Below, in pieces: positions 40,360 to 62,145 of a DNA stretch of 64,000 bases (position 1 is the first letter of the stretch; each line of letters starts with the position of its first letter). The DNA is from Bacillota bacterium. Lineage in GTDB: Bacteria > Bacillota > Clostridia > Oscillospirales > Feifaniaceae. The stretch spans positions 1 to 64,000 of the forward strand of contig JAUZPM010000001.1 of assembly GCA_030705925.1 (NCBI GenBank). The letters run 5' to 3'. Both the position numbers and the translations under genes were made by a program. The notes under the pieces are model-generated. The model saw only the letters and a list, made by a program, of their open reading frames with translations. It searched no databases and was not told the origin of the DNA.

Positions 40360-41164
40360 TTTTTAATCGCAAAACCTTTCTATTATTAAGATCAAATCCA
40401 AACCCCTGCGGAAGTACATGAACCGTAACACCCATAATTGCAAGGATTTCATCTTGTTTAAGTTCAGAAACATTAGAACATTGAATTGATTTTCCGTCTA
40501 TTATTGTAACTGCATTTGAACCGATTATTTCAAAATGCATATCAGGAAAAAGTTTAATTGACGTATCTTCATCAATACCAATTCCGATTACATCAGGATT
40601 TTCAGCAACTCCGCACAAAAGCCTGCCAAACCTTCCCCGCTGGTCAAAATGCTGATCTATTATAACGCCGCCTATAAGCCCAAGCCCCGGGGCCATTTTA
40701 AGCGTGCATTTTCTTGCCGGCTCATTGTCGTTTCCCTGAACAATCATAGTGGAACTCATAACTGAAGCTCCCGCGCTTGTCCCCATTATGATTCCTTCAT
40801 TTTCATATATTTTTTTGAGCTCCGTCCAGGCAAGCGTGCCACCTAAAATACTCGTTATTCTAAGCTGATCACCGCCCGTCATAAATACGCATTTTGAATT
40901 TCTAAGTTTTTCACAATATTCTTCACTGTCTGCGTCATCACGTGAATTAATATTTAAAATCTGAATATTTTTAACGCCCAGCCTTTGAAAAACCTCATGA
41001 TAATTTTGACCTGTTTCTTTAGGCTTTTCAGTTGCAGTTGTTAAAACCGTCAACACATCATTTTCTGAAAGCATAGAGGGCGCTTGTTTTAATATTACGC
41101 TGTCTCCCTTTTTATCTTCAGCACCACCAATAATAACAAGATAGCCTCTCGTTTTTTCCTCCAT
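40349..41164 (-). CDS. cphB: Cyanophycinase
   Basis: 271 aa, S51-type serine exopeptidase. It cuts cyanophycin to beta-Asp-Arg dipeptides. The nucleophile Ser is in GTSAGASVMSS (about residue 132), a conserved GGDQLRI precedes it, and DQHFDQRGRFGRL supplies the His of the active site. It starts 3 nt after iadA and overlaps cphA, so synthesis and breakdown are co-expressed or controlled after transcription. Confidence 0.95.
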   Translation of the reverse strand: MEEKTRGYLVIIGGAEDKKGDSVILKQAPSMLSENDVLTVLTTATEKPKETGQNYHEVFQRLGVKNIQILNINSRDDADSEEYCEKLRNSKCVFMTGGDQLRITSILGGTLAWTELKKIYENEGIIMGTSAGASVMSSTMIVQGNDNEPARKCTLKMAPGLGLIGGVIIDQHFDQRGRFGRLLCGVAENPDVIGIGIDEDTSIKLFPDMHFEIIGSNAVTIIDGKSIQCSNVSELKQDEILAIMGVTVHVLPQGFGFDLNNRKVLRLKNGD

Positions 41165-43891: not shown

Positions 43892-44515
43892 TTATTCTTT
43901 TGAAATTATTATTAAAAGTTTTCCGGTTTTATTACTTATAACAGCCTTATCATTGGTGAACTCATTGCTTACCCCTATCGGAAACGTATTCTCTAATGTA
44001 AAGTCGGAAAGAGGATATTTTAATCCGGTAGATGTGACACCTGTACACTTATCCGAAAACGAAAAAAGTGATAATTTACAGCCCTCGGTTTTATTTACGG
44101 TTATTTTGCTTCCCTCTATCATAGTGATTATATTTTCAGAGTCTGTCATATAAGCCTGCATTTTCTTTTCGCATAAGAACGCCAGTGTCTGCAAGTTTGC
44201 ATAGGTATGGTCAAATCTCCCTCCTATGCCTCCTATAATAGTAAAGTCGCTGAAACCCTTCTCGATTCCATATTTGATACAAAGAAGCGTATCGGTATCG
44301 TCTTTCTCAGCCGGAACCTTTATAACCGTTATATCATCCGGCATTTCGCCAAAATATGAATCAAAATCACCAATTAAAACATTTGGCACAATGTTCTCAG
44401 CTTCGGCAAGCTCATATCCGCCGTCAGCGCAAATTATAAAATCATCATTTTTAATATCAATCACATCTCGAATTTTACCTATTATATACGACGTGATTAT
44501 AATGCATCTGCTCAA
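43892..44515 (-). CDS. thiN: Thiamine pyrophosphokinase
   Basis: 207 aa. It pyrophosphorylates thiamine to thiamine diphosphate. Family motifs are FIICADGGYELAE, VLIGDFDSY, PAEKDDTDTLLCIKYGIEKG and IGGIGGRFDHTYANL. It is the last gene of the thi operon, overlapping the HAD gene by 4 nt. ThiN uses free thiamine, not thiamine monophosphate, which requires a phosphatase step in this pathway. Confidence 0.95.
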   Translation of the reverse strand: MSRCIIITSYIIGKIRDVIDIKNDDFIICADGGYELAEAENIVPNVLIGDFDSYFGEMPDDITVIKVPAEKDDTDTLLCIKYGIEKGFSDFTIIGGIGGRFDHTYANLQTLAFLCEKKMQAYMTDSENIITMIEGSKITVNKTEGCKLSLFSFSDKCTGVTSTGLKYPLSDFTLENTFPIGVSNEFTNDKAVISNKTGKLLIIISKE

Positions 44516-45165
44516 AATTTACCTCTTAAACATTCACCAAAATTAAGAATATAGCCATCCGCAATCTTGATTATAGCATCTTTTTCATGTTCTGAATACT
44601 TGTCATATACACCATATGCCTTTATCCCGGCAATTTTCATTCCCTTTATTGCAGAACAAACATCATCAAATCCTATACAGTTTTGGGGAGAAACTCCGAG
44701 TTTTCGGCATGCATATAAATATAAATCAGGGCAATTCTTCTCTCTTTTAATATCATCTGTTGAGGTAAATACGTCAAACATATCATAAATACCATTGTTT
44801 TTAAGCACTGGCTCATACAAGTTTTGGGAAAGAGCAGTTGTCACCGCAAGCTTTATACCATTCCCTTTTAAATAGGCTAAAAATTCTTTAGCATAAGGCT
44901 TGAGTTTAATGTTATGCCCATATTCATAAATAGCCATACCGTTCCACTCGTCTATTATTTCAGCCGGGCTTTCGGTAAAGTTAAATAATTCGATTGAATA
45001 CTCTGCCGCCCTTTGAAAGCTAAGCCCCGCAAGTTCCGCCGCATAATTTTTTGGGACTTTTTGCCCTCTCTTAGCTAAAAAATCGATATCGATCTTTTCC
45101 CATACGCCCATAGAATCGATAACTGTGCCGTCAAGATCGAATAACGCTGCCTTAAAATCAGGCAT
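44512..45165 (-). CDS. HAD-family phosphatase, candidate thiamine monophosphate phosphatase
   Basis: 217 aa, HAD subfamily IA. The nucleophile motif is [10 protein letters not shown] (about residues 8-17), motif II is TTALS near 112, and motif IV is [11 protein letters not shown] near 165. It resembles phosphoglycolate-phosphatase-like enzymes, whose specificity cannot be read directly. It overlaps thiE by 8 nt and thiN by 4 nt, so it is embedded between the gene that makes thiamine monophosphate and the gene that needs thiamine. Assignment as TMP phosphatase is inferred from context. Confidence 0.8.
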
Positions 45166-45811
45166 TTCCCGACTCCTTTGTTTTCAAAAATAGATTTTTT
45201 AAACTTGCCGATGCTGCTGTAATATCATTACTTGCTATTATAGCAGAAACAACGGCTACTCCGTCAATATCCGTTCCATTAAACATAGGTATGGTTCTTT
45301 CATTAATTCCGCCAATCACAACAAGCGGAATCGCGACGGCCTTTCTTATTTTGTTAAGTTCATCGATTGTTACAATGCTGGCGTCCGTCTTTGTGCCTGT
45401 CTTAAACATCGCGCCAATGCCAAGATAATCGGCTCCATCCATTTGAGCATTTAATGCTTCATTTAGACTTGAGGCAGAAACGCCAAGGATTTTATCTGCG
45501 CCAATTATTTTTCTAACGGATTTTGCGGGAAGATCACCCTGACCTATATGTATGCCGGCGGCATCCATAGCAAGCGCAATATCAACTCTGTCGTTTATAA
45601 TAAGCGGAACATTGAAATGATCCGTAACACGCTTTATATTCATTGCAATATCATAAAATTCTCTCGATGAAGCATCTTTCTCGCGCAGCTGTACAACGGT
45701 GCAGCCGCCCTTTATAGAATTTTCAACAGCCTCTTCAAGCGTGGCGGTACTCATTAAGCCACGGTCCGTTACAAGATAAAGAGTATAATCTACATCTGCT
45801 TTATTAATCAT
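45158..45811 (-). CDS. thiE: Thiamine-phosphate synthase
   Basis: 217 aa. It joins HMP-diphosphate and thiazole phosphate to thiamine monophosphate. TIM-barrel motifs are intact: [61 protein letters not shown] and VVIGGINE. It starts 14 nt after thiM and overlaps the HAD gene. Confidence 0.96.
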
Positions 45812-45825
45812 TTTAAATCCTTTGC

Positions 45826-46662
45826 TTATATTTCATCAATTTTCGATCTTGATTCAAAATATCTCGAGTCAAGTTTGCTTATGCTGTCAATAAGCGCCGT
45901 CCTAAAACTGCTTGTTCCCATATCTCCGGCTTTTTCAAAGGCGGTCTCTCCTGCTATACCCATTGATGATATGCCTGAAACCGCGCCTAAGAAATAATCC
46001 CTTGTGGCTCCGCAAAAAGAACCGATAAGAGATGTGCACATACAGCCAGTCCCCGTTACGGAGGAAAGCATTGGATGGCCGTTTTTTATGCTTACTGTTC
46101 TAATACCATCAGATACATAATCAACAGCGCCGGTAATAGCGACAACGCATTTAAGTTTTTCTGCAAGTTCTTCTGCAACTTGGATGCCGCTTTCTGTTCC
46201 TTTCACATCGGCTTCAGATGCGTCAACACCTCTTGTGCTTGCGTGGAGTCCACTGATAAAACGTATCTCAGACATATTCCCGCGTATAACGCTGAATTTT
46301 ATTTCACTAATTAGCTTGTTAACAGTATCATTTCTAAGCGGCGAAGCACCAGCTCCGACTGGATCAAGCACAACAGGGATCTTTAATTCATTTGCCTTTT
46401 TGCCGGCTGCGATCATCGAATTTATCGTACGGCTGTTAAGCGTTCCGATATTTATAACCAAAACTGAGGAAATAGAAACGATATCTTCCACCTCTCCTAT
46501 ATCGTCAGCCATAATTGGCGATGCTCCGATGGCAAGCACAATGTTGGCGCAGTCGTTCACTGTAACATAATTAGTAATATGGTGAACTAACGGTTTTTTA
46601 CTGCGCACCTCACTAATGAGTTCAGCACATTTTAAAGTAGTATTATTTCCCACTTTGTTCAC
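45826..46662 (-). CDS. thiM: Hydroxyethylthiazole kinase
   Basis: 278 aa. It phosphorylates the thiazole alcohol to feed ThiE, a salvage reaction. Recognisable blocks are [49 protein letters not shown] and the anion-hole [15 protein letters not shown]. It overlaps thiC by 20 nt. No thiazole-synthesis genes (thiG, thiS, thiH) are in this operon. Confidence 0.96.
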
Positions 46663-47971
46663 ATTCCTTTCCTAGTATCTCAACGGATTCCCCGTTTAAA
46701 ATTCTATTTACCGTACGCATGGCGCACATTTTTCCGCACATTGAACAGCTGTGACGGTCAGCCGGCGGAACACTCTCAAAATAAGACCTCGCTTTTTCGC
46801 CGTCTATAGCGGTCGCAAACATTGTATCCCAGTCAAAGCTGCGGCGCGCCTCACTCATTTTATTATCGATTTCACGCGCCCCCTTCACACCTTTTGCAAT
46901 ATCTGCCGCGTGTGCGGCAATCTTAGAGGCAATAATCCCTTCTTTTACATCTGAAAGGTCAGGCAGACGCAGGTGCTCAGCCGGAGTTACATAGCAAAGA
47001 AAGTCTGCGCCGTTAGCTGCTGCAATTGCACCGCCGATAGCGGAGGTTATATGGTCATAGCCCGGGGCAATGTCAGTCACAAGCGGCCCCAGGACATAAA
47101 ACGGCGCGCCGTGGCAAAGCTTCTTTTCAAGTTTCATATTTGCGGCGATTTCGTCAATAGCCATATGTCCCGGCCCTTCAACAAGCACCTGAACATCTTT
47201 ATCCCATGCGCGTTTAGTCAGATTTCCTATTTCTATTAGTTCAGATATTTGCGCTGCGTCGGTCGCATCATGAATACTGCCTGGTCTTAACGCGTCGCCG
47301 AGACTTATCGTTACATCATGCTCACGAAGAATATCTAAAAGCTCGTCATAATATTCATAAAACGGATTTTCATTTCCCGTCATTTTCATCCATGCGAAGA
47401 GCAGCGAGCCCCCGCGTGAAACTATATTAGTAATTCTTTTCTGTCTCGAGAAAGCTTCAACTGCGCGGCGGTTTATCCCGGCATGTATTGTCATAAAATC
47501 GACGCCTTCTTCAGCGTGAACGCGGACAACATCCAAAAAATCCTTTGCGGTAATATCCATTAAGTCCTTTTCAAGATACCCGATGGCATCATACATAGGA
47601 ACCGTGCCAATCATCGCTGTCGATCTTTCGATCAGCTTTTTTCTGAATTCTCGGGTCTTGCCGTAATTGCTGAGATCCATTATCGCTTCCGCCCCATATT
47701 TGAGCGAGAGTTCAACCTTGTCCATTTCCAAGCTGTAATCAGCGCAGTCACCTGAAATACCGAGATTTACGTTGATTTTCGTCTTGAGTCCTTCACCGAC
47801 TCCATATGGGTGTAAAGATTTATGGTTTTTATTTGCCGGAATTGCAACAGTTCCGGCCGCAACTTTGGATAACAGAACCTTTTCATCTATCAGTTCTTCC
47901 TTTGCCACCGTTGCAATCTCTTTTGTAACAAAACCGTTTTTTGCGGCTTCCATTTGGGTTTTATAGATCAT
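46643..47971 (-). CDS. thiC: Phosphomethylpyrimidine synthase
   Basis: 442 aa. Radical-SAM enzyme turning aminoimidazole ribotide into HMP phosphate. The core [26 protein letters not shown] and [21 protein letters not shown] are intact. The C-terminal cluster motif reads CSMCGKMC, a C-x2-C-x3-C spacing one residue shorter than the classical C-x2-C-x4-C. The protein is also shorter than the ~630-aa enterobacterial form, like other clostridial versions. Overlaps thiD by 11 nt. Confidence 0.95.
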
Positions 47972-48770
47972 AATCTATTTCTCCTTTTTTATATAAATCA
48001 TAAAAATGATTTGTAGGACCAAATCCCTTTCCAATAACAAGTGAATGTTTTATAGCCGTCGTCATATATGTCTTTGCCTTTTCAACAGATGCCTGAACAG
48101 CCATGCCCAGCGCAAGATTTGAAGCAATCGCAGAAGAGTATGTGCATCCTGTCCCGTGTGTGTTTTTTGTATTTATTCTTGCAGTGCTGAAACAGTAAAA
48201 CTGCTCCCCGTCAAACAAAACGTCTGTTGCATCTCCTGACGCATGTCCTCCTTTTACAAGAACGGCTTTACAGCCTTTTTGGCAAATTATTTTGGCAGCT
48301 TTTTTCATGCTTTCAATATTATCTATTATTATTCCCGAAATCCTTTCAGCTTCAGGGATATTGGGAGTGAGAACATCCGCCAGCGGCAGAATTTCATTTA
48401 TAAAAATATCAACAGACTGCGGGTCCATTAAAGCGCTGCCATCTTTTGAGTACATCACCGGGTCGATAACAATATTCTTTGGCCTGTAAAACCTGAGTTT
48501 TTTTGCAACAACCGCCATGCAGTCGGCAGTCGGAAGCATCCCGATTTTTACGGCGTCCGTTTCAATGTCCTCGAATATTGCATCTATCTGACTGCCCACA
48601 ATATCGGGTGAGATATTTTCAATTTCATAGACTTTGCATGTATTTTCAGCGACAACTGAAGTTATCACACTCATGCCATAAACGCCATGCGCCGAAAATG
48701 TTTTCAAATCTGCCTGGATCCCAGCTCCGCCGCTGCAGTCAGAGCCTGCGATACTTAATGCTTTTTTCAT
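47961..48770 (-). CDS. thiD: Hydroxymethylpyrimidine/phosphomethylpyrimidine kinase
   Basis: 269 aa. It phosphorylates HMP phosphate to the diphosphate used by ThiE. The start [22 protein letters not shown] and [15 protein letters not shown] near residue 210 are signature blocks. First gene of the operon, with GGGAG 7 nt upstream of the ATG, directly after the terminator of the second TPP riboswitch. Confidence 0.95.
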
Positions 48771-48783
48771 CTTGATCTCCCTA

Positions 48784-48816
48784 AATAAAAATCAGCGCTT
48801 TCCATCAGGAAAGCGC
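48784..48816 (-). terminator. Expression-platform terminator of TPP riboswitch 2
   Basis: GCGCTTTCC pairs with GGAAAGCGC (48795-48803 with 48808-48816), followed on the minus strand by TTTTTATTT and then the thiD ribosome site. Confidence 0.85.
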
Positions 48817-48836
48817 CCCTAAAATTAAAGGCATTT

Positions 48837-48912
48837 GCTTCCCTACGATAGTCTTGACTAACAGGTTCAAAGGGTCAGGTTTTAACCTTCTCAACCAAAA
48901 TGGTTCCCCCGC
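48837..48912 (-). ncRNA. TPP riboswitch 2 (thiD-proximal aptamer)
   Basis: The THI-box core reads, on the minus strand, GCGGGGGAACC, TTGAGAAGG, ACCTGACCCTTTGAACCTG and CGTAGGGAAGC. These are the pyrimidine- and pyrophosphate-sensing elements of the TPP aptamer. It is followed by its own terminator (48784-48816). The helix between them differs from the other copy at a few positions. Confidence 0.95.
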
Positions 48913-48923
48913 AAACGATATAA

Positions 48924-48959
48924 TATTAAAATTAAAAAGGCACCTAAGCAGGTGCCTTT
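48924..48959 (-). terminator. Expression-platform terminator of TPP riboswitch 1
   Basis: AAAGGCACC pairs with GGTGCCTTT (48936-48944 with 48951-48959), followed on the minus strand by TTAATTTTAAT. It separates the two aptamers. Confidence 0.85.
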
Positions 48960-48980
48960 CAAATACCAAAGTATATGACA

Positions 48981-49055
48981 GCTTCCCTACGTTAGTCTTA
49001 ACTAACAGGTTCAAAGGGTCAGGTTTTAACCTTCTCAACCAATCGGTTCCCCCGC
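48981..49055 (-). ncRNA. TPP riboswitch 1 (promoter-proximal aptamer)
   Basis: The same THI-box blocks as the thiD-proximal copy, beginning GCGGGGGAACCGATTGG and ending AACGTAGGGAAGC on the minus strand. It starts 12 nt after the -10 box of the operon promoter and is followed by its own terminator. Confidence 0.95.
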
Positions 49056-49066
49056 GATCTAATTTA

Positions 49067-49094
49067 ATTATAGTGATTTATATTACTTTGTCAA
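49067..49094 (-). promoter_or_regulatory. thi operon promoter
   Basis: Minus strand TTGACA (49089-49094), 16-nt spacer, TATAAT (49067-49072). The TTGACA lies 8 nt beyond the alpha-galactosidase stop codon. Confidence 0.8.
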
Positions 49095-49101
49095 CATCAG
49101 A

Positions 49102-51282
49102 TCATAAGACTTTTATTTCAAAAAACCTTGCCTGACAGCAATTTTTAAAATGAACTGTCAGTGCGCCTTTGTCTTCATTATAATAAAATTCAGTTTCAAA
49201 TCCGCTTGACGGATAGAGCTGTTTTACTGCTGCTTTTTTGCCTGCCCATTTGTGAATTGGAAGTTCTATATATTCCTCACCGCTCTGAAGTCTCCATACC
49301 GCCAGCAGCACTCTGCTGTTTTCATCATTCACAAGTCCGACACTCGCCCATGAATTTCTGTTATTTATATCTGTAAAACCAATCGGCCAGACCGGGTGTG
49401 AATTGTGGATATGACTGCGTTCCGATTTATAAAGCGAAATCCCCTCTTTTATTAGGGACATATTGAATTCGTCAGCAGCATCAGGATTGCCGGAAAGATA
49501 CATGTTTCCGCACAATCCAGTTACCATATTAAAAATAGTCTTTTCCCCATCAGCAAACATATCTAGATATTTCTGGTCTTTTAATATATCCGGATTATCT
49601 TTGTTTGCAAACACAAGCGGATAAGGATAAGCCCATATTCCCAGCTGCTCCGGCAGAATGGACGCTAGGCTCCCAACAGCAATAGACGGGAAATTATAGC
49701 AGTCTTCCTGATCACTGGAGCTTTGAATATGGAAATGCGATAAAACGCCATAATCTTCTCTCATTCCGCCCGAGCCGCAGTTTTCTATTATCAAAGTCGG
49801 ATGTTTTTTTCTGACTTCATCAATAAATGAATAAAATGCCTCAAAGTGTTTTATTAGTCCATAAGATGAAGCAATGCCACCCTTATCGCACCCTGAGCCT
49901 ATGCATGCGTTATAATCATTTTTAATAAAACCTACGCCCATCGAAACCAAGCTGTCAATTATATTATGTAAATATCCTCTTACTTCAGGATTTTCAAAGT
50001 TTAAGAACCAGCGTGCTCCCCCTCCGACACGAACTCCATTTCGCATCAAAAACCACGAATCCGGCTTTTTTCCGAGATTCGATTCATCTCCGCAAACCTC
50101 CATCTCAAGCCATACGCCTGGTATCATATTTTTTGACTTGATATAATCAAGCACGCTTTCAAGGCCTTTGTCAAATCTGTCCTTACTCGGTATCCAGTCG
50201 CCAAGCATCCTTCCCCAGGATTTGTCCCTGTCTCCAAACCATCCGGCATCTATGCAGAAACATTCAGCCCCCTCTTCCGCGGCGGCGTCTATCTTCGGAG
50301 TAAGCTTTTCTATTGTCGGATTGCCCCAAAGACAGTTCATATAATCATTGAACACAACAGGGAATTCATTGTCCCATGCCTTCCGTGGTTTAAGCACGTT
50401 TCTTCTGTAAGATGTCAGCTCTTTTACTGCATCGTCAAAGTTTCCTTTGCAGCATCCGACAGCAACCGGAACAGAAGTAAAGCTTTCACCCGGCTTAAGC
50501 GTAAGATTGAATCCGCCAAATCTTTCATCTGCCGCATCGGCATGAATACATAAGGCGCCGTCATCATTCTTCCATGAGCCCATGTATCCAATCTCCATGT
50601 GCCAATTTGAAGACGTTTCGATCTGAAAATACCAAACTTTATTTGACTCTATGTCTTCAATTACCGCCATCGGAAGAAGTCTCCCAGTACTCCAGCTTCC
50701 TTGTGACGAAAAGTGAACAGCCGATGCCCCGGGGTGAGTCGTGCATTTATAAAGTCCCAGATCGGAAAGGCTTGAATTTCTCCACTGACCTTCCCCATTC
50801 CAAGCCTGTCTGCAATAATGAACTTTCACTTTCTTCTCATCATACCATGGTCTAATTCCGTCTGTTGCAATACCATTCATAAACATTGAAGATACATGGG
50901 TCAAGATAACCGGCGAATCCCCGTCATTTCTGACAGCTGTCGTCTGTCTGATTACATTTGCACCTTTAATAAGCTGCATATCAACTTTAACGGATAGTCC
51001 CAATTTTTCATGTTTATATGTAATAATGATCTCTTCATCGTTACTTTTTATGTCTTCCATATTCATTTCGGTTGGCAAAGCCGAGTATATTTCAGTAAGG
51101 GCATTATTTCCACCATACGGTATACCTGCAACAGAAAGCTGAAAGCAGGGGTAAGGAACACTTTTATTTAATTTAGAAACTTCCCCGCAGTTAAATGCCT
51201 TAAGCCACAGACCTTTTTTTGTGTTTTCAAACTCCATTGCTATATCGTTATGTTTAAGCGTTACGTTTTCTTTGGTCTCCAT
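49102..51282 (-). CDS. Alpha-galactosidase (GH36-like)
   Basis: 726 aa. GH36-type fold: an N-terminal beta-sandwich (about 1-310), then a catalytic barrel with GVWLEMEV, the nucleophile Asp in FIKNDYNA and the acid/base Asp in SSDQED, preceded by ENCGSGGMREDYG. No signal peptide, so it is intracellular and would act on imported raffinose-type sugars or other alpha-galactosides. ATG at 51282 is chosen (GGGAG 7 nt upstream); a strong promoter at 51311-51339 would start transcription after the longer-frame ATG at 51342. It has no sugar-transporter neighbour. Confidence 0.9.
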   Translation of the reverse strand: METKENVTLKHNDIAMEFENTKKGLWLKAFNCGEVSKLNKSVPYPCFQLSVAGIPYGGNNALTEIYSALPTEMNMEDIKSNDEEIIITYKHEKLGLSVKVDMQLIKGANVIRQTTAVRNDGDSPVILTHVSSMFMNGIATDGIRPWYDEKKVKVHYCRQAWNGEGQWRNSSLSDLGLYKCTTHPGASAVHFSSQGSWSTGRLLPMAVIEDIESNKVWYFQIETSSNWHMEIGYMGSWKNDDGALCIHADAADERFGGFNLTLKPGESFTSVPVAVGCCKGNFDDAVKELTSYRRNVLKPRKAWDNEFPVVFNDYMNCLWGNPTIEKLTPKIDAAAEEGAECFCIDAGWFGDRDKSWGRMLGDWIPSKDRFDKGLESVLDYIKSKNMIPGVWLEMEVCGDESNLGKKPDSWFLMRNGVRVGGGARWFLNFENPEVRGYLHNIIDSLVSMGVGFIKNDYNACIGSGCDKGGIASSYGLIKHFEAFYSFIDEVRKKHPTLIIENCGSGGMREDYGVLSHFHIQSSSDQEDCYNFPSIAVGSLASILPEQLGIWAYPYPLVFANKDNPDILKDQKYLDMFADGEKTIFNMVTGLCGNMYLSGNPDAADEFNMSLIKEGISLYKSERSHIHNSHPVWPIGFTDINNRNSWASVGLVNDENSRVLLAVWRLQSGEEYIELPIHKWAGKKAAVKQLYPSSGFETEFYYNEDKGALTVHFKNCCQARFFEIKVL

Positions 51283-51310
51283 TACAATTCTCCCAATCAA
51301 CTTGTTTTGT

Positions 51311-51339
51311 TTTATACTATAATAATTTATCTGCAGCAA
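51311..51339 (-). promoter_or_regulatory. Alpha-galactosidase promoter
   Basis: Minus strand TTGCTG (51334-51339), 17-nt spacer, TATAAA (51311-51316). The rest of the gene-free stretch up to the ech promoter is AT-rich and nothing else was recognised there. Confidence 0.65.
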
Positions 51340-51485
51340 CAATATGTATTTTCTTAATAAGCTATTTTATAAGACAATTGTTAATGAATATTTGATAAAT
51401 ATGCCTTGTTTATTCCAACTAGTATACGATTTTACAATATATTTTTGCAAATAAAAATATTACTAAAATAAACGGCAAAAAAATA

Positions 51486-51513: not shown

Positions 51514-51586
51514 ATTATATTTGGGTCAAAGTTTAAATTTACAATTGCCTATATTTATAAAATATATTATAAAAAGGAAAATGATA

Positions 51587-53500
51587 ATGCAGATTGTAAT
51601 GTTTTTAATGCTCTTCTTAATACTTTTTCCATTATTAATAATGCTTGCAATGGCAGTAATCAATAATCAAGCCTTGCGTAGTGCTATTATAAAAATATCT
51701 GTGTTTCTTATAGCGGCAGCGTCGATATGGTTATTCGTTCTGAATATTAATAACTCAGAACCTTTGATGTTCGCAGTAAATATTGATTTTATAAACACAC
51801 TAATGACGTCGATTTCAGTATTGATTTCTATATACATTATTTATGCAGGTTTTCGCGATAAAAAATATTGGGCTTCTGTTTTAGCTGTTTTACAGATAAT
51901 ATCCTCACTCGCTTTTGAACTGGCTTACAGCGGAAAAATACATTCGGAATACGATCTAATGCTGGATAATCTTTCACTGATTATGGTGCTGCTAGTAGGC
52001 ATAATCGGCGGATTGATCTGCATTTTTGCTATAGGCTACATGGCTAAATATCACCACCATAAACTGATGAAAGATAAGTCAAAACTGTTTTTCACAACTG
52101 TCTATGCTTTTATTTCGGCAATGTTCGGGCTCGTTTTGTCAAATAACCTCATGTGGCTATTGTTCTTTTGGGAAATAACCACCTTCTGCTCTTTTGTACT
52201 TATCGGTTATACTCGCCGTGAAGATTCAATACGTAACTCCTATCGTGCATTAATCATGAATATGGCAGGAGGGCTTGCCTTTTTAGCCGGTATAGCCTGG
52301 CTGTTTAAAACTCAGGGAATTATTGAGCTTGATAAATTGATGGCCTTAGCTCCTGCGGCTGCAATGGTGCCGGCAATTCTGATTAGCTTATCTGGTGTTG
52401 TAAAGTCAGCCCAGATGCCTTTTTCGTCATGGCTTTTAGGTGCAATGGTTGCCCCAACTCCTACCTCAGCGCTTCTGCATTCAAGTACAATGGTAAAGGC
52501 GGGGGTTTATATTATCATCCGTCTGTCGCCGTTACTTAAGAATACCCCAGCCGGTTTTGCGCTTACGCTTATCGGTGCAATAACATTCTTACTCGCATCA
52601 TTTATTGCAATCTCAATGCATAACGTCAAGAGACTGCTGGCCTATTCGACAATTTCAACCTTAGGTCTGATCGTTGCATGCGCGGGCGTCGGGACATATC
52701 AGGCTATTTGGACCGCAATTTTGCTTATGATTTTCCATGCAGTTGCAAAATCGCTCTTGTTCTTAAGCGTCGGAACAGTAGAACACGGCATAGACAGCCT
52801 TAACATAGAGGATATGGACGGGCTTATCCTTCGTATGCCTAAAGTTACAGTTTGTCTTTTGATTGGTATTTCAGGCATGTTCCTAGCTCCGTTTGGCATG
52901 CTGATAAGTAAATGGGCGGCACTGGAGGCGTTGATCGTTGCAAATCCATTTATCGCGTTCTTTGTTGTGTTCGGAAGTTCCGCAACGCTGTTCTTCTATA
53001 CAAAATGGATGGGTAAATTAATCATGATCATTCACCCGTCTGAAAACCAGGAAAAAGTAGTGTCATCCGCTGAATGGTTCACAATGGGCACCCTTTCTGC
53101 ATTGACTGTCCTTGTCTGCATAGCTTTCCCAAGCATTTCTACCCATATAATTGATCCTTATATACGTCATTTATATCAGCAGGATGTTTCGATGAATACG
53201 GGAAACATTGTTATAATGCTTATTATGATGGCTCTTATATTGACCCTTCCGTTCCAGATATTATTGCAGCATAAAGACAAGAAACACGTCATTGCCTATT
53301 TATGCGGTGCAAATATCACAGAAAACAATCTTTTATATGAAGCTAACACACGTTTTCATACAACTAAAATGGACGTTGAAGAACTTAAACTTAGAAATTA
53401 CTATTTTGAAAATTATTTTGGGGAGGATAAACTGGGCAAAATAGGCGTAGTAACAACAACTTTACTGATAGCCGTATTGTTTGGTATAATACTAATATGA
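51587..53500 (+). CDS. echA: Ech hydrogenase subunit EchA (NuoL/antiporter-like)
   Basis: 637 aa with about 14-16 membrane helices. Proton-conducting antiporter-like subunit of the energy-conserving NiFe hydrogenase, homologous to NuoL/HycC. Typical core blocks are FFWEITTFCSFVLIGY, SAQMPFSSWLLGAMVAPTPTSALLHSSTMVKAG and FHAVAKSLLFLSVG with their conserved Lys and His. ATG at 51587 is favoured by AAGGA 8 nt upstream over TTG 51521 or ATG 51581. It overlaps echB by 4 nt. Confidence 0.93.
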   Translation: MQIVMFLMLFLILFPLLIMLAMAVINNQALRSAIIKISVFLIAAASIWLFVLNINNSEPLMFAVNIDFINTLMTSISVLISIYIIYAGFRDKKYWASVLAVLQIISSLAFELAYSGKIHSEYDLMLDNLSLIMVLLVGIIGGLICIFAIGYMAKYHHHKLMKDKSKLFFTTVYAFISAMFGLVLSNNLMWLLFFWEITTFCSFVLIGYTRREDSIRNSYRALIMNMAGGLAFLAGIAWLFKTQGIIELDKLMALAPAAAMVPAILISLSGVVKSAQMPFSSWLLGAMVAPTPTSALLHSSTMVKAGVYIIIRLSPLLKNTPAGFALTLIGAITFLLASFIAISMHNVKRLLAYSTISTLGLIVACAGVGTYQAIWTAILLMIFHAVAKSLLFLSVGTVEHGIDSLNIEDMDGLILRMPKVTVCLLIGISGMFLAPFGMLISKWAALEALIVANPFIAFFVVFGSSATLFFYTKWMGKLIMIIHPSENQEKVVSSAEWFTMGTLSALTVLVCIAFPSISTHIIDPYIRHLYQQDVSMNTGNIVIMLIMMALILTLPFQILLQHKDKKHVIAYLCGANITENNLLYEANTRFHTTKMDVEELKLRNYYFENYFGEDKLGKIGVVTTTLLIAVLFGIILI

Positions 53501-54348
53501 AAATAATATTGATTTCAATCGCTTTTATTATATTTGCCCCTATTTTAGGCGGACTATTGTCGGGTCTCGACAGAATCATTTCGGCAAGGATGCAAAAAAG
53601 GGTTGGGCCAAGCATTTTCCAGCCTTTTTATGATGTATTCAAACTTTTCCAAAAGGAAAACGTTGTCGTAAACAGCTCTCAGAATTTCTATATGATCTGT
53701 TTTCTCATCTTCACAGTATTTACAGGCGCAATGCTTTTTACGGGAGAAGATATACTTCTAACTGTATTTTCGTCAACACTTGCCGGAATCTTTTTTGTTC
53801 TCGGCGGTTATTCGACATATTCACCCTATAGCTTTATAGGTTCAGAAAGAGAACTTATCTCTATGATGTCAGACGAGCCAATGGTTATACTTATGGCGAT
53901 AGGCATGTACATGGTGACACACAGCTTTTTTATTCACGATATTGTCGCATTTGATAAACCCGCAATTATTTACTTGCCGGGTGTATTTATCGGCTATTTA
54001 TTCGTTCTTACAATAAAGATGAAGAAATCACCTTTTGATCTCTCTATGTCTCATCACGCTCATCAGGAAGTAGTAAGCGGAATAAAAACAGAATTTTCAG
54101 GTAAATCCCTTGCAATGATAGAAATTGCACATTGGTATGAAAATATATTTTTACTCGGAACGGTTTACCTGTTCTTTGCCGTATCGCCTATAATCGGTAT
54201 TCTAGTTTCACTTTTAGTTTATTTTATTGAGACATTCATTGATAACACAAATGCTAGAGTAAAATGGCAGTGGTTATTAAAATCATCGTGGATTGTGGCG
54301 TTAGTATTCGGAGCTACAAACATATTGATTTTATATTTTGTAAAATAA
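53497..54348 (+). CDS. echB: Ech hydrogenase subunit EchB (NuoH-like)
   Basis: 283 aa, about eight membrane helices. Membrane subunit homologous to NuoH/HycD that couples electron flow to ion transport. The start PILGGLLSGLDRIISARMQKRVGPSIFQPFYDVFKLFQKE is a near-consensus NuoH/HycD block, and KKSPFDLSMSHHAHQE follows in the middle. Overlaps echA (ATGA), followed by echC after 12 nt with GGAGAGAG. Confidence 0.94.
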   Translation: MKIILISIAFIIFAPILGGLLSGLDRIISARMQKRVGPSIFQPFYDVFKLFQKENVVVNSSQNFYMICFLIFTVFTGAMLFTGEDILLTVFSSTLAGIFFVLGGYSTYSPYSFIGSERELISMMSDEPMVILMAIGMYMVTHSFFIHDIVAFDKPAIIYLPGVFIGYLFVLTIKMKKSPFDLSMSHHAHQEVVSGIKTEFSGKSLAMIEIAHWYENIFLLGTVYLFFAVSPIIGILVSLLVYFIETFIDNTNARVKWQWLLKSSWIVALVFGATNILILYFVK

Positions 54349-61158: not shown

Positions 61159-62145
61159 ATGAAAATTACAACCGCACATGGCGGCGGCGGCAAACTTTCT
61201 GCCGAGCTAATCCATGATATATTTGAAAGATATTTTTCTAATAGCATATTAAATGAAATGCAGGATTCTGCGGTATTACCAATCCCATCTGATAAAATCG
61301 CATTCACCACAGATTCATTCGTGGTAAACCCGCTGTTTTTTTCCGGTGGAGATATTGGACGCCTAGCTGTCTGCGGGACGGTAAACGATCTTCTTATGCG
61401 CGGCGCCATTCCTAAATATCTGTCGGCAGGCTTTATTTTAGAAGAAGGACTAGATACTGATCTTCTTCTAAAAGTTGTAAGATCGATGCAGCTTACAGCC
61501 AAAGAAGCCGGCGTTATTGTTGTCGCGGGCGATACAAAAGTAATAGAAGGTAAAGGCGGCTTATATATCAATACTTCCGGAATAGGATTAATAAATGACG
61601 AAGTTGATGTAAGCGCCAAAAATGTTGTTCCCAATGATACGGTGATAATAAGCGGATACCTTGGAAATCATCATGCCTGTATCATGTCGAAGCGTATGGG
61701 AATTGAAAATACAATAGAAAGTGATTGCGCCCCGTTATGCGATATGGTTAACGGGCTAATAGAAAATAAAATCCATATTCACGCTATGCGTGATATAACC
61801 CGCGGCGGGCTTGCCACAGTATTAAACGAAATCGCATTGTCGTCTTGCGTTAATATAGATTTATTTCCCGACTTGAAAATAGCAGATGAACAGGTCGAAG
61901 GGTTTTGCAATATTCTTGGGTTAGATCCTCTGTATATGGGAAACGAGGGAAAAATGGTCGTATTCGTACCCACCTACGATGCGGATAAAGCTTTGAATAT
62001 AATAAAAGCATCAAAATACGGCAAAAATGCGAAGATGATCGGAACTGTTAAATCTGCACCCCCGGAAGTCACTATAAAGACTCGTTCAGGCGGCACAAGA
62101 ATAATTGAGCCACTGATGGGTGAAGGTCTGCCCAGGATTTGCTAG
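61159..62145 (+). CDS. hypE: Hydrogenase maturation protein HypE
   Basis: 328 aa, AIR-synthase-like ATPase. It dehydrates the carbamoylated C-terminal Cys to cyanide. AHGGGGKLSAELI at the start, GDTKVIEGKGGLYINTSGIG in the ATP region, and the essential terminal Cys (GLPRIC) at the very end are intact. Last gene of the ech-hyp operon; no clear hairpin terminator follows. Confidence 0.96.
   Translation: MKITTAHGGGGKLSAELIHDIFERYFSNSILNEMQDSAVLPIPSDKIAFTTDSFVVNPLFFSGGDIGRLAVCGTVNDLLMRGAIPKYLSAGFILEEGLDTDLLLKVVRSMQLTAKEAGVIVVAGDTKVIEGKGGLYINTSGIGLINDEVDVSAKNVVPNDTVIISGYLGNHHACIMSKRMGIENTIESDCAPLCDMVNGLIENKIHIHAMRDITRGGLATVLNEIALSSCVNIDLFPDLKIADEQVEGFCNILGLDPLYMGNEGKMVVFVPTYDADKALNIIKASKYGKNAKMIGTVKSAPPEVTIKTRSGGTRIIEPLMGEGLPRIC

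Follow-up and report, generated by a model that had tools for sequence, protein, structure and literature searches.

The presence of multiple aptamers has been reported for fewer than 1% of the UTRs of the TPP and AdoCbl riboswitch classes (PMC2258182), so that, considered as a proportion, the series arrangement analyzed here is rare for TPP, as the original prediction had stated. It is nevertheless well documented, with 213 published tandem TPP representatives of a type named pseudo-cooperative (PMC9481103), and in the Bacillota the genes enriched for TPP-TPP control include thiD, thiC, thiM and thiE (PMC12452182). The tandem of Bacillus anthracis (Welz and Breaker 2007), to the extent that it is described in PMC9481103, where it is cited, shares with the present leader two complete same-class riboswitches which act on transcription in series before thiamin-related genes; relative to the case as described there, the present leader belongs to another organism, precedes a thiD-thiC-thiM-thiE-HAD-thiN operon and has aptamers of the short J4/5-P5 subtype. 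The TPP/HMP-PP tandems (PMC6478431) likewise place a TPP switch first and provide the second switch with its own terminator, but in those systems the second switch responds to HMP-PP (the thiS motif), whereas here it belongs to the TPP class and no two-ligand logic gate is formed. The present leader is one clear added example of same-class riboswitches in series, and it leaves the understanding of TPP riboswitches unchanged.

The leader lies on the minus strand of the window (the whole stretch of 64,000 nucleotides that was analyzed), a strand assignment which the original prediction had left unstated, and its elements (Table 1) are transcribed in the order promoter, aptamer 1, terminator 1, aptamer 2, terminator 2, thiD. 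It is very probable that the two complete TPP riboswitches in this leader form a series of two OFF switches which act independently on the thiamin operon by terminating transcription. The prediction that two complete aptamers precede thiD, each with its own terminator, is borne out by full-length Rfam matches and by two terminator hairpins. The predicted 68-nt gap between the aptamers does contain terminator 1, although its length is approximately 60 nt when taken from P1 to P1 and 45 nt when taken between the Rfam edges. The promoter identified by the scan stands directly upstream of aptamer 1, and its 5' end coincides with the upper end (49094) of the interval first singled out; no second promoter was found between the aptamers by the same scan. 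At the other end of the leader, the U-run of terminator 2 continues into the thiD Shine-Dalgarno sequence, in agreement with the prediction that this terminator ends at the ribosome site, and a gap of 6 nt separates AGGGAG from the thiD ATG (48770). Because the Shine-Dalgarno sequence falls outside the terminator 2 stem, control is likely to be transcriptional rather than translational.

Table 1. Positions in the window of the tandem TPP leader elements and of the genes of the thiamin operon.
Feature	Positions	Strand	Evidence and remarks
Sigma-70-type promoter, TTGACA-16-TATAAT	49067..49094	(-)	promoter scan, 12/12 consensus matches
TPP aptamer 1, first transcribed	48966..49063	(-)	Rfam RF00059; one C-U mismatch in P1
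Intrinsic terminator 1	48935..48960	(-)	11-pair stem, tail TAATTTTAAT; 5' arm can pair with GUAGG of aptamer 1
TPP aptamer 2	48822..48920	(-)	Rfam RF00059; full 6-pair P1, first P5 pair U-U
Intrinsic terminator 2	48794..48817	(-)	10-pair stem, tail GATTTTTATT; 5' arm GCUUUCC pairs with GGGAAGC of aptamer 2
thiD Shine-Dalgarno, AGGGAG	48777..48782	(-)	read from sequence; outside terminator 2 stem
thiD, HMP/HMP-P kinase	47961..48770	(-)	TIGR00097, 348 bits
thiC, HMP-P synthase	46643..47971	(-)	
thiM, hydroxyethylthiazole kinase	45826..46662	(-)	
thiE, thiamin phosphate synthase	45158..45811	(-)	
HAD-superfamily phosphatase, candidate thiamin monophosphate phosphatase (inferred)	44512..45165	(-)	
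thiN/TPK, thiamin pyrophosphokinase	43892..44515	(-)	

Both aptamers align to the complete RF00059 model (TPP, THI element; positions 1-105) with scores above its gathering score of 54.3 bits, aptamer 1 at 63.2 bits (E = 4.8e-10 over the window) and aptamer 2 at 62.2 bits (E = 8.1e-10 over the window). No further Rfam family was matched in the leader at E values up to 1, which rules out a hidden RNA of a different class at that threshold. The motifs UGAGA (J2/3), GAACCUG, CG (J4/5) and UAGGGA are retained in both copies, which is consistent with the predicted functionality of both cores. A possible decay of aptamer 2, suggested by the U-U at the base of its P5, was considered and rejected, because this feature is common in the short aptamer subtype to which it belongs: among the matches listed, 52 of the 118 short-form TPP-like sequences leave the outermost P5 pair open, and the remaining three pairs of P5 are almost always kept. 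Judged by conservation, neither aptamer looks decayed.

Two terminator-like hairpins were found in the leader where 0.4 would be expected, and in comparison with shuffled sequences the terminator regions have fold z-scores of -3.5 (terminator 1) and -3.3 (terminator 2), with U-tracts that are imperfect in both cases. Alternative pairings were evaluated by folding partial transcripts cut in the terminator loop as well as full-length transcripts. In the cut transcripts, GUAGG of aptamer 1 pairs with CCUGC of terminator 1, and the heptamers of aptamer 2 and terminator 2 listed in Table 1 likewise pair, each as an antiterminator, while the terminators prevail when the transcripts are full length. 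The promoter, the aptamers, the terminators and these alternative pairings are thus all present in the sequence. Each antiterminator would be mutually exclusive with the corresponding ligand-bound aptamer, because the same residues are needed for P4 or P1. The antiterminator duplex of switch 2 is stronger than 99.9% of random windows from the same strand and 99.4% of shuffled arms; that of switch 1 (-9.4 kcal/mol) is marginal with respect to chance, being equalled or exceeded in 6% of the random windows and in 9% of the shuffled arms.

This near-chance strength, together with the interrupted P1 of aptamer 1, makes switch 1 slightly less supported than switch 2 despite its marginally higher aptamer score, and it raises the question of whether regulation rests on one of the switches, the other (more likely switch 1) being a duplicate which still folds but contributes little. 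Such an account would also fit with the P1 of aptamer 2, which has the form found in another family where a single aptamer precedes thiC, and with the distribution of the pair, which is absent from the other seven genomes of the source family. It is nonetheless unlikely, since the core motifs of aptamer 1 are intact and its score lies slightly above that of aptamer 2, terminator 1 is strong, and the sole promoter found by the scan precedes aptamer 1.

If both switches are active, as we consider very probable, RNA polymerase would initiate at this promoter and would first encounter aptamer 1. With TPP bound, P1 and P4 would retain the 3' strand of the aptamer, no antiterminator would form, and transcription would stop at terminator 1; transcripts that escaped would reach aptamer 2 and be subjected to the same decision at terminator 2. 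Without TPP, the 3' strand of each aptamer would be free to pair with the 5' arm of its own terminator, permitting read-through into thiD. We infer that the aptamers would bind their ligand, that the two switches would be independent and that switching would take place in vivo. Placing two such switches in series would be expected mainly to square the leak, and in addition to lower the effective TPP threshold and slightly steepen the response. For ideal series switches with equal constants, calculation gives a reduction of the 10-90% span from 81-fold to 40-fold, equivalent to an apparent Hill coefficient of 1.19, and a midpoint that falls to 0.41 K; a tenfold difference between the constants lowers the apparent Hill coefficient to 1.10. 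A leak of 10% per terminator becomes 1% for a pair of ideal independent switches. Of the steeper and more complete shut-off originally predicted, the completeness is therefore upheld by this ideal arithmetic, but the steepening is modest at best, and the likely benefit of the pair is tighter shut-off more than steepness.

The operon downstream, in the order thiD-thiC-thiM-thiE-HAD phosphatase-thiN, is what a TPP OFF switch would be expected to control. No ThiL match in the genome exceeded the cutoff, and ThiG is represented by a weak partial match only, which suggests that thiazole may be salvaged by ThiM and that thiamin monophosphate may be converted to thiamin and then to TPP, with the HAD enzyme as the putative phosphatase. 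A ThiL-family match below the cutoff (61204-62079) may be a HypE-type protein belonging to one cluster with a series of membrane subunits, resembling the membrane arm of complex I-like enzymes or hydrogenases, which begins at 51521-54348 (+).

Upstream of the leader, a gene for a GH36/melibiase-like glycosidase (49102-51342, minus strand), whose best NCBIfam match is a beta-L-arabinopyranosidase model at a score below the cutoff, ends just before the thiamin promoter. Since this gene is on the same strand and no terminator was found by the scan between its end (49102) and the promoter, the doubled terminators might serve mainly to shield the thiamin operon from GH36 read-through, but one switch would already suffice for that purpose and the identical two-terminator layout recurs in other tandem TPP leaders, so that such a role is very unlikely to be the principal one.

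The J4/5-P5 segment comprises 14 nt in both aptamers compared to the usual 16. This is not a new J4/5 variant: a pattern scan recovered the short form in at least 119 stretches across Bacillota, Bifidobacterium, spirochaetes and other groups, and within the order it is present in 9 of 295 genomes. In G015 and G072 it stands upstream of thiC, and in a genome of the same family as the source (G006) a closely related form with 15 nt precedes thiD as a single aptamer. Reading by eye, a clear terminator-like hairpin follows the aptamer in G072 and G006, while the hairpin in G015 has a poorer U-run. The third TPP riboswitch of the genome (G000:C13:17043-17153) is located on another contig as a single copy, and the gene that follows it, read by eye, encodes an apparent ThiT-like thiamin transporter; the J4/5 of this riboswitch is of ordinary length, so the genome holds both aptamer subtypes.

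The two missing nucleotides lie near the pyrophosphate site in both copies, and the Breaker laboratory has mentioned unpublished variants of the TPP class with thiamin or thiamin monophosphate as ligand (PMC9481103), which together could be taken to indicate that the two aptamers differ in their ligands, or that both sense thiamin or thiamin monophosphate and not TPP. This is highly improbable, given that nearly all core residues are common to both aptamers, which makes a difference between them unlikely, that J4/5 still has its CG and J2/3 its UGAGA, and that the widespread short form stands before thiC or thiD where it was inspected. There is an equally small chance that the short subtype as a whole, these two aptamers included, prefers thiamin monophosphate or thiamin; in that event the molecule sensed by the leader would be an intermediate of the operon's own HAD-phosphatase/ThiN route rather than TPP.

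Tandem same-strand TPP matches within 200 nt were found in at least 7 of the 295 sampled genomes of the order, a lower bound because genomes that gave a single match under the stricter filter were counted as non-tandem. The seven, from five families, are the source genome, G009, G040, G076, G162, G169 and G252, the last with both matches below the Rfam cutoff. Among the short-subtype loci, 8 of the 119 matches listed have a second same-strand TPP aptamer over the cutoff nearby; two of ten tandem candidates from a regular-expression search (L102 and L108) had one aptamer over the cutoff each and were dropped. The layout aptamer-terminator-aptamer-terminator is present in all eight other tandem leaders inspected, namely those of the six other genomes above and two short-subtype leaders, from Psychrobacillus vulpis (L130) and a Bacillota MAG (L138). 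The six share the layout and have a start-to-start spacing of approximately 150-175 nt, but their aptamers are of the ordinary J4/5 subtype, with approximately 30-44% identity to the source pair in the aptamer alignment. L130 and L138 match the source leader in subtype and have 66-74% aptamer identity, although they come from different taxa and are non-orthologous to it as far as tested.

No leader match spanning both aptamers was found in 394 genomes of the order, in which all matches hit single aptamers or short stretches; these relatives thus yielded no homologous tandem leader, and, with no orthologous tandem leader in the sampled genomes, there is no sign of selection retaining both copies. 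Within the pair, the aptamers share 77% identity; the single aptamer before thiC in G072 shares 86% with aptamer 2, and its counterpart in G015 shares 82-83% with either copy. As the simplest account of these sequences, the pair is likely to have arisen by local duplication within a short-subtype leader; because the similarity between the copies does not surpass that to aptamers from another family, sequences of approximately 100 nt neither date such a duplication nor exclude separate acquisition. The single aptamer before thiD in G006, from the same family, in which no other genome has a tandem, speaks for duplication and could help in studying how such pairs arise. A different paired arrangement occurs elsewhere in the order, where two divergent TPP riboswitches stand head to head 67 nt apart (L188, G293:C4:40395-40495 on the minus strand and 40563-40673 on the plus strand).
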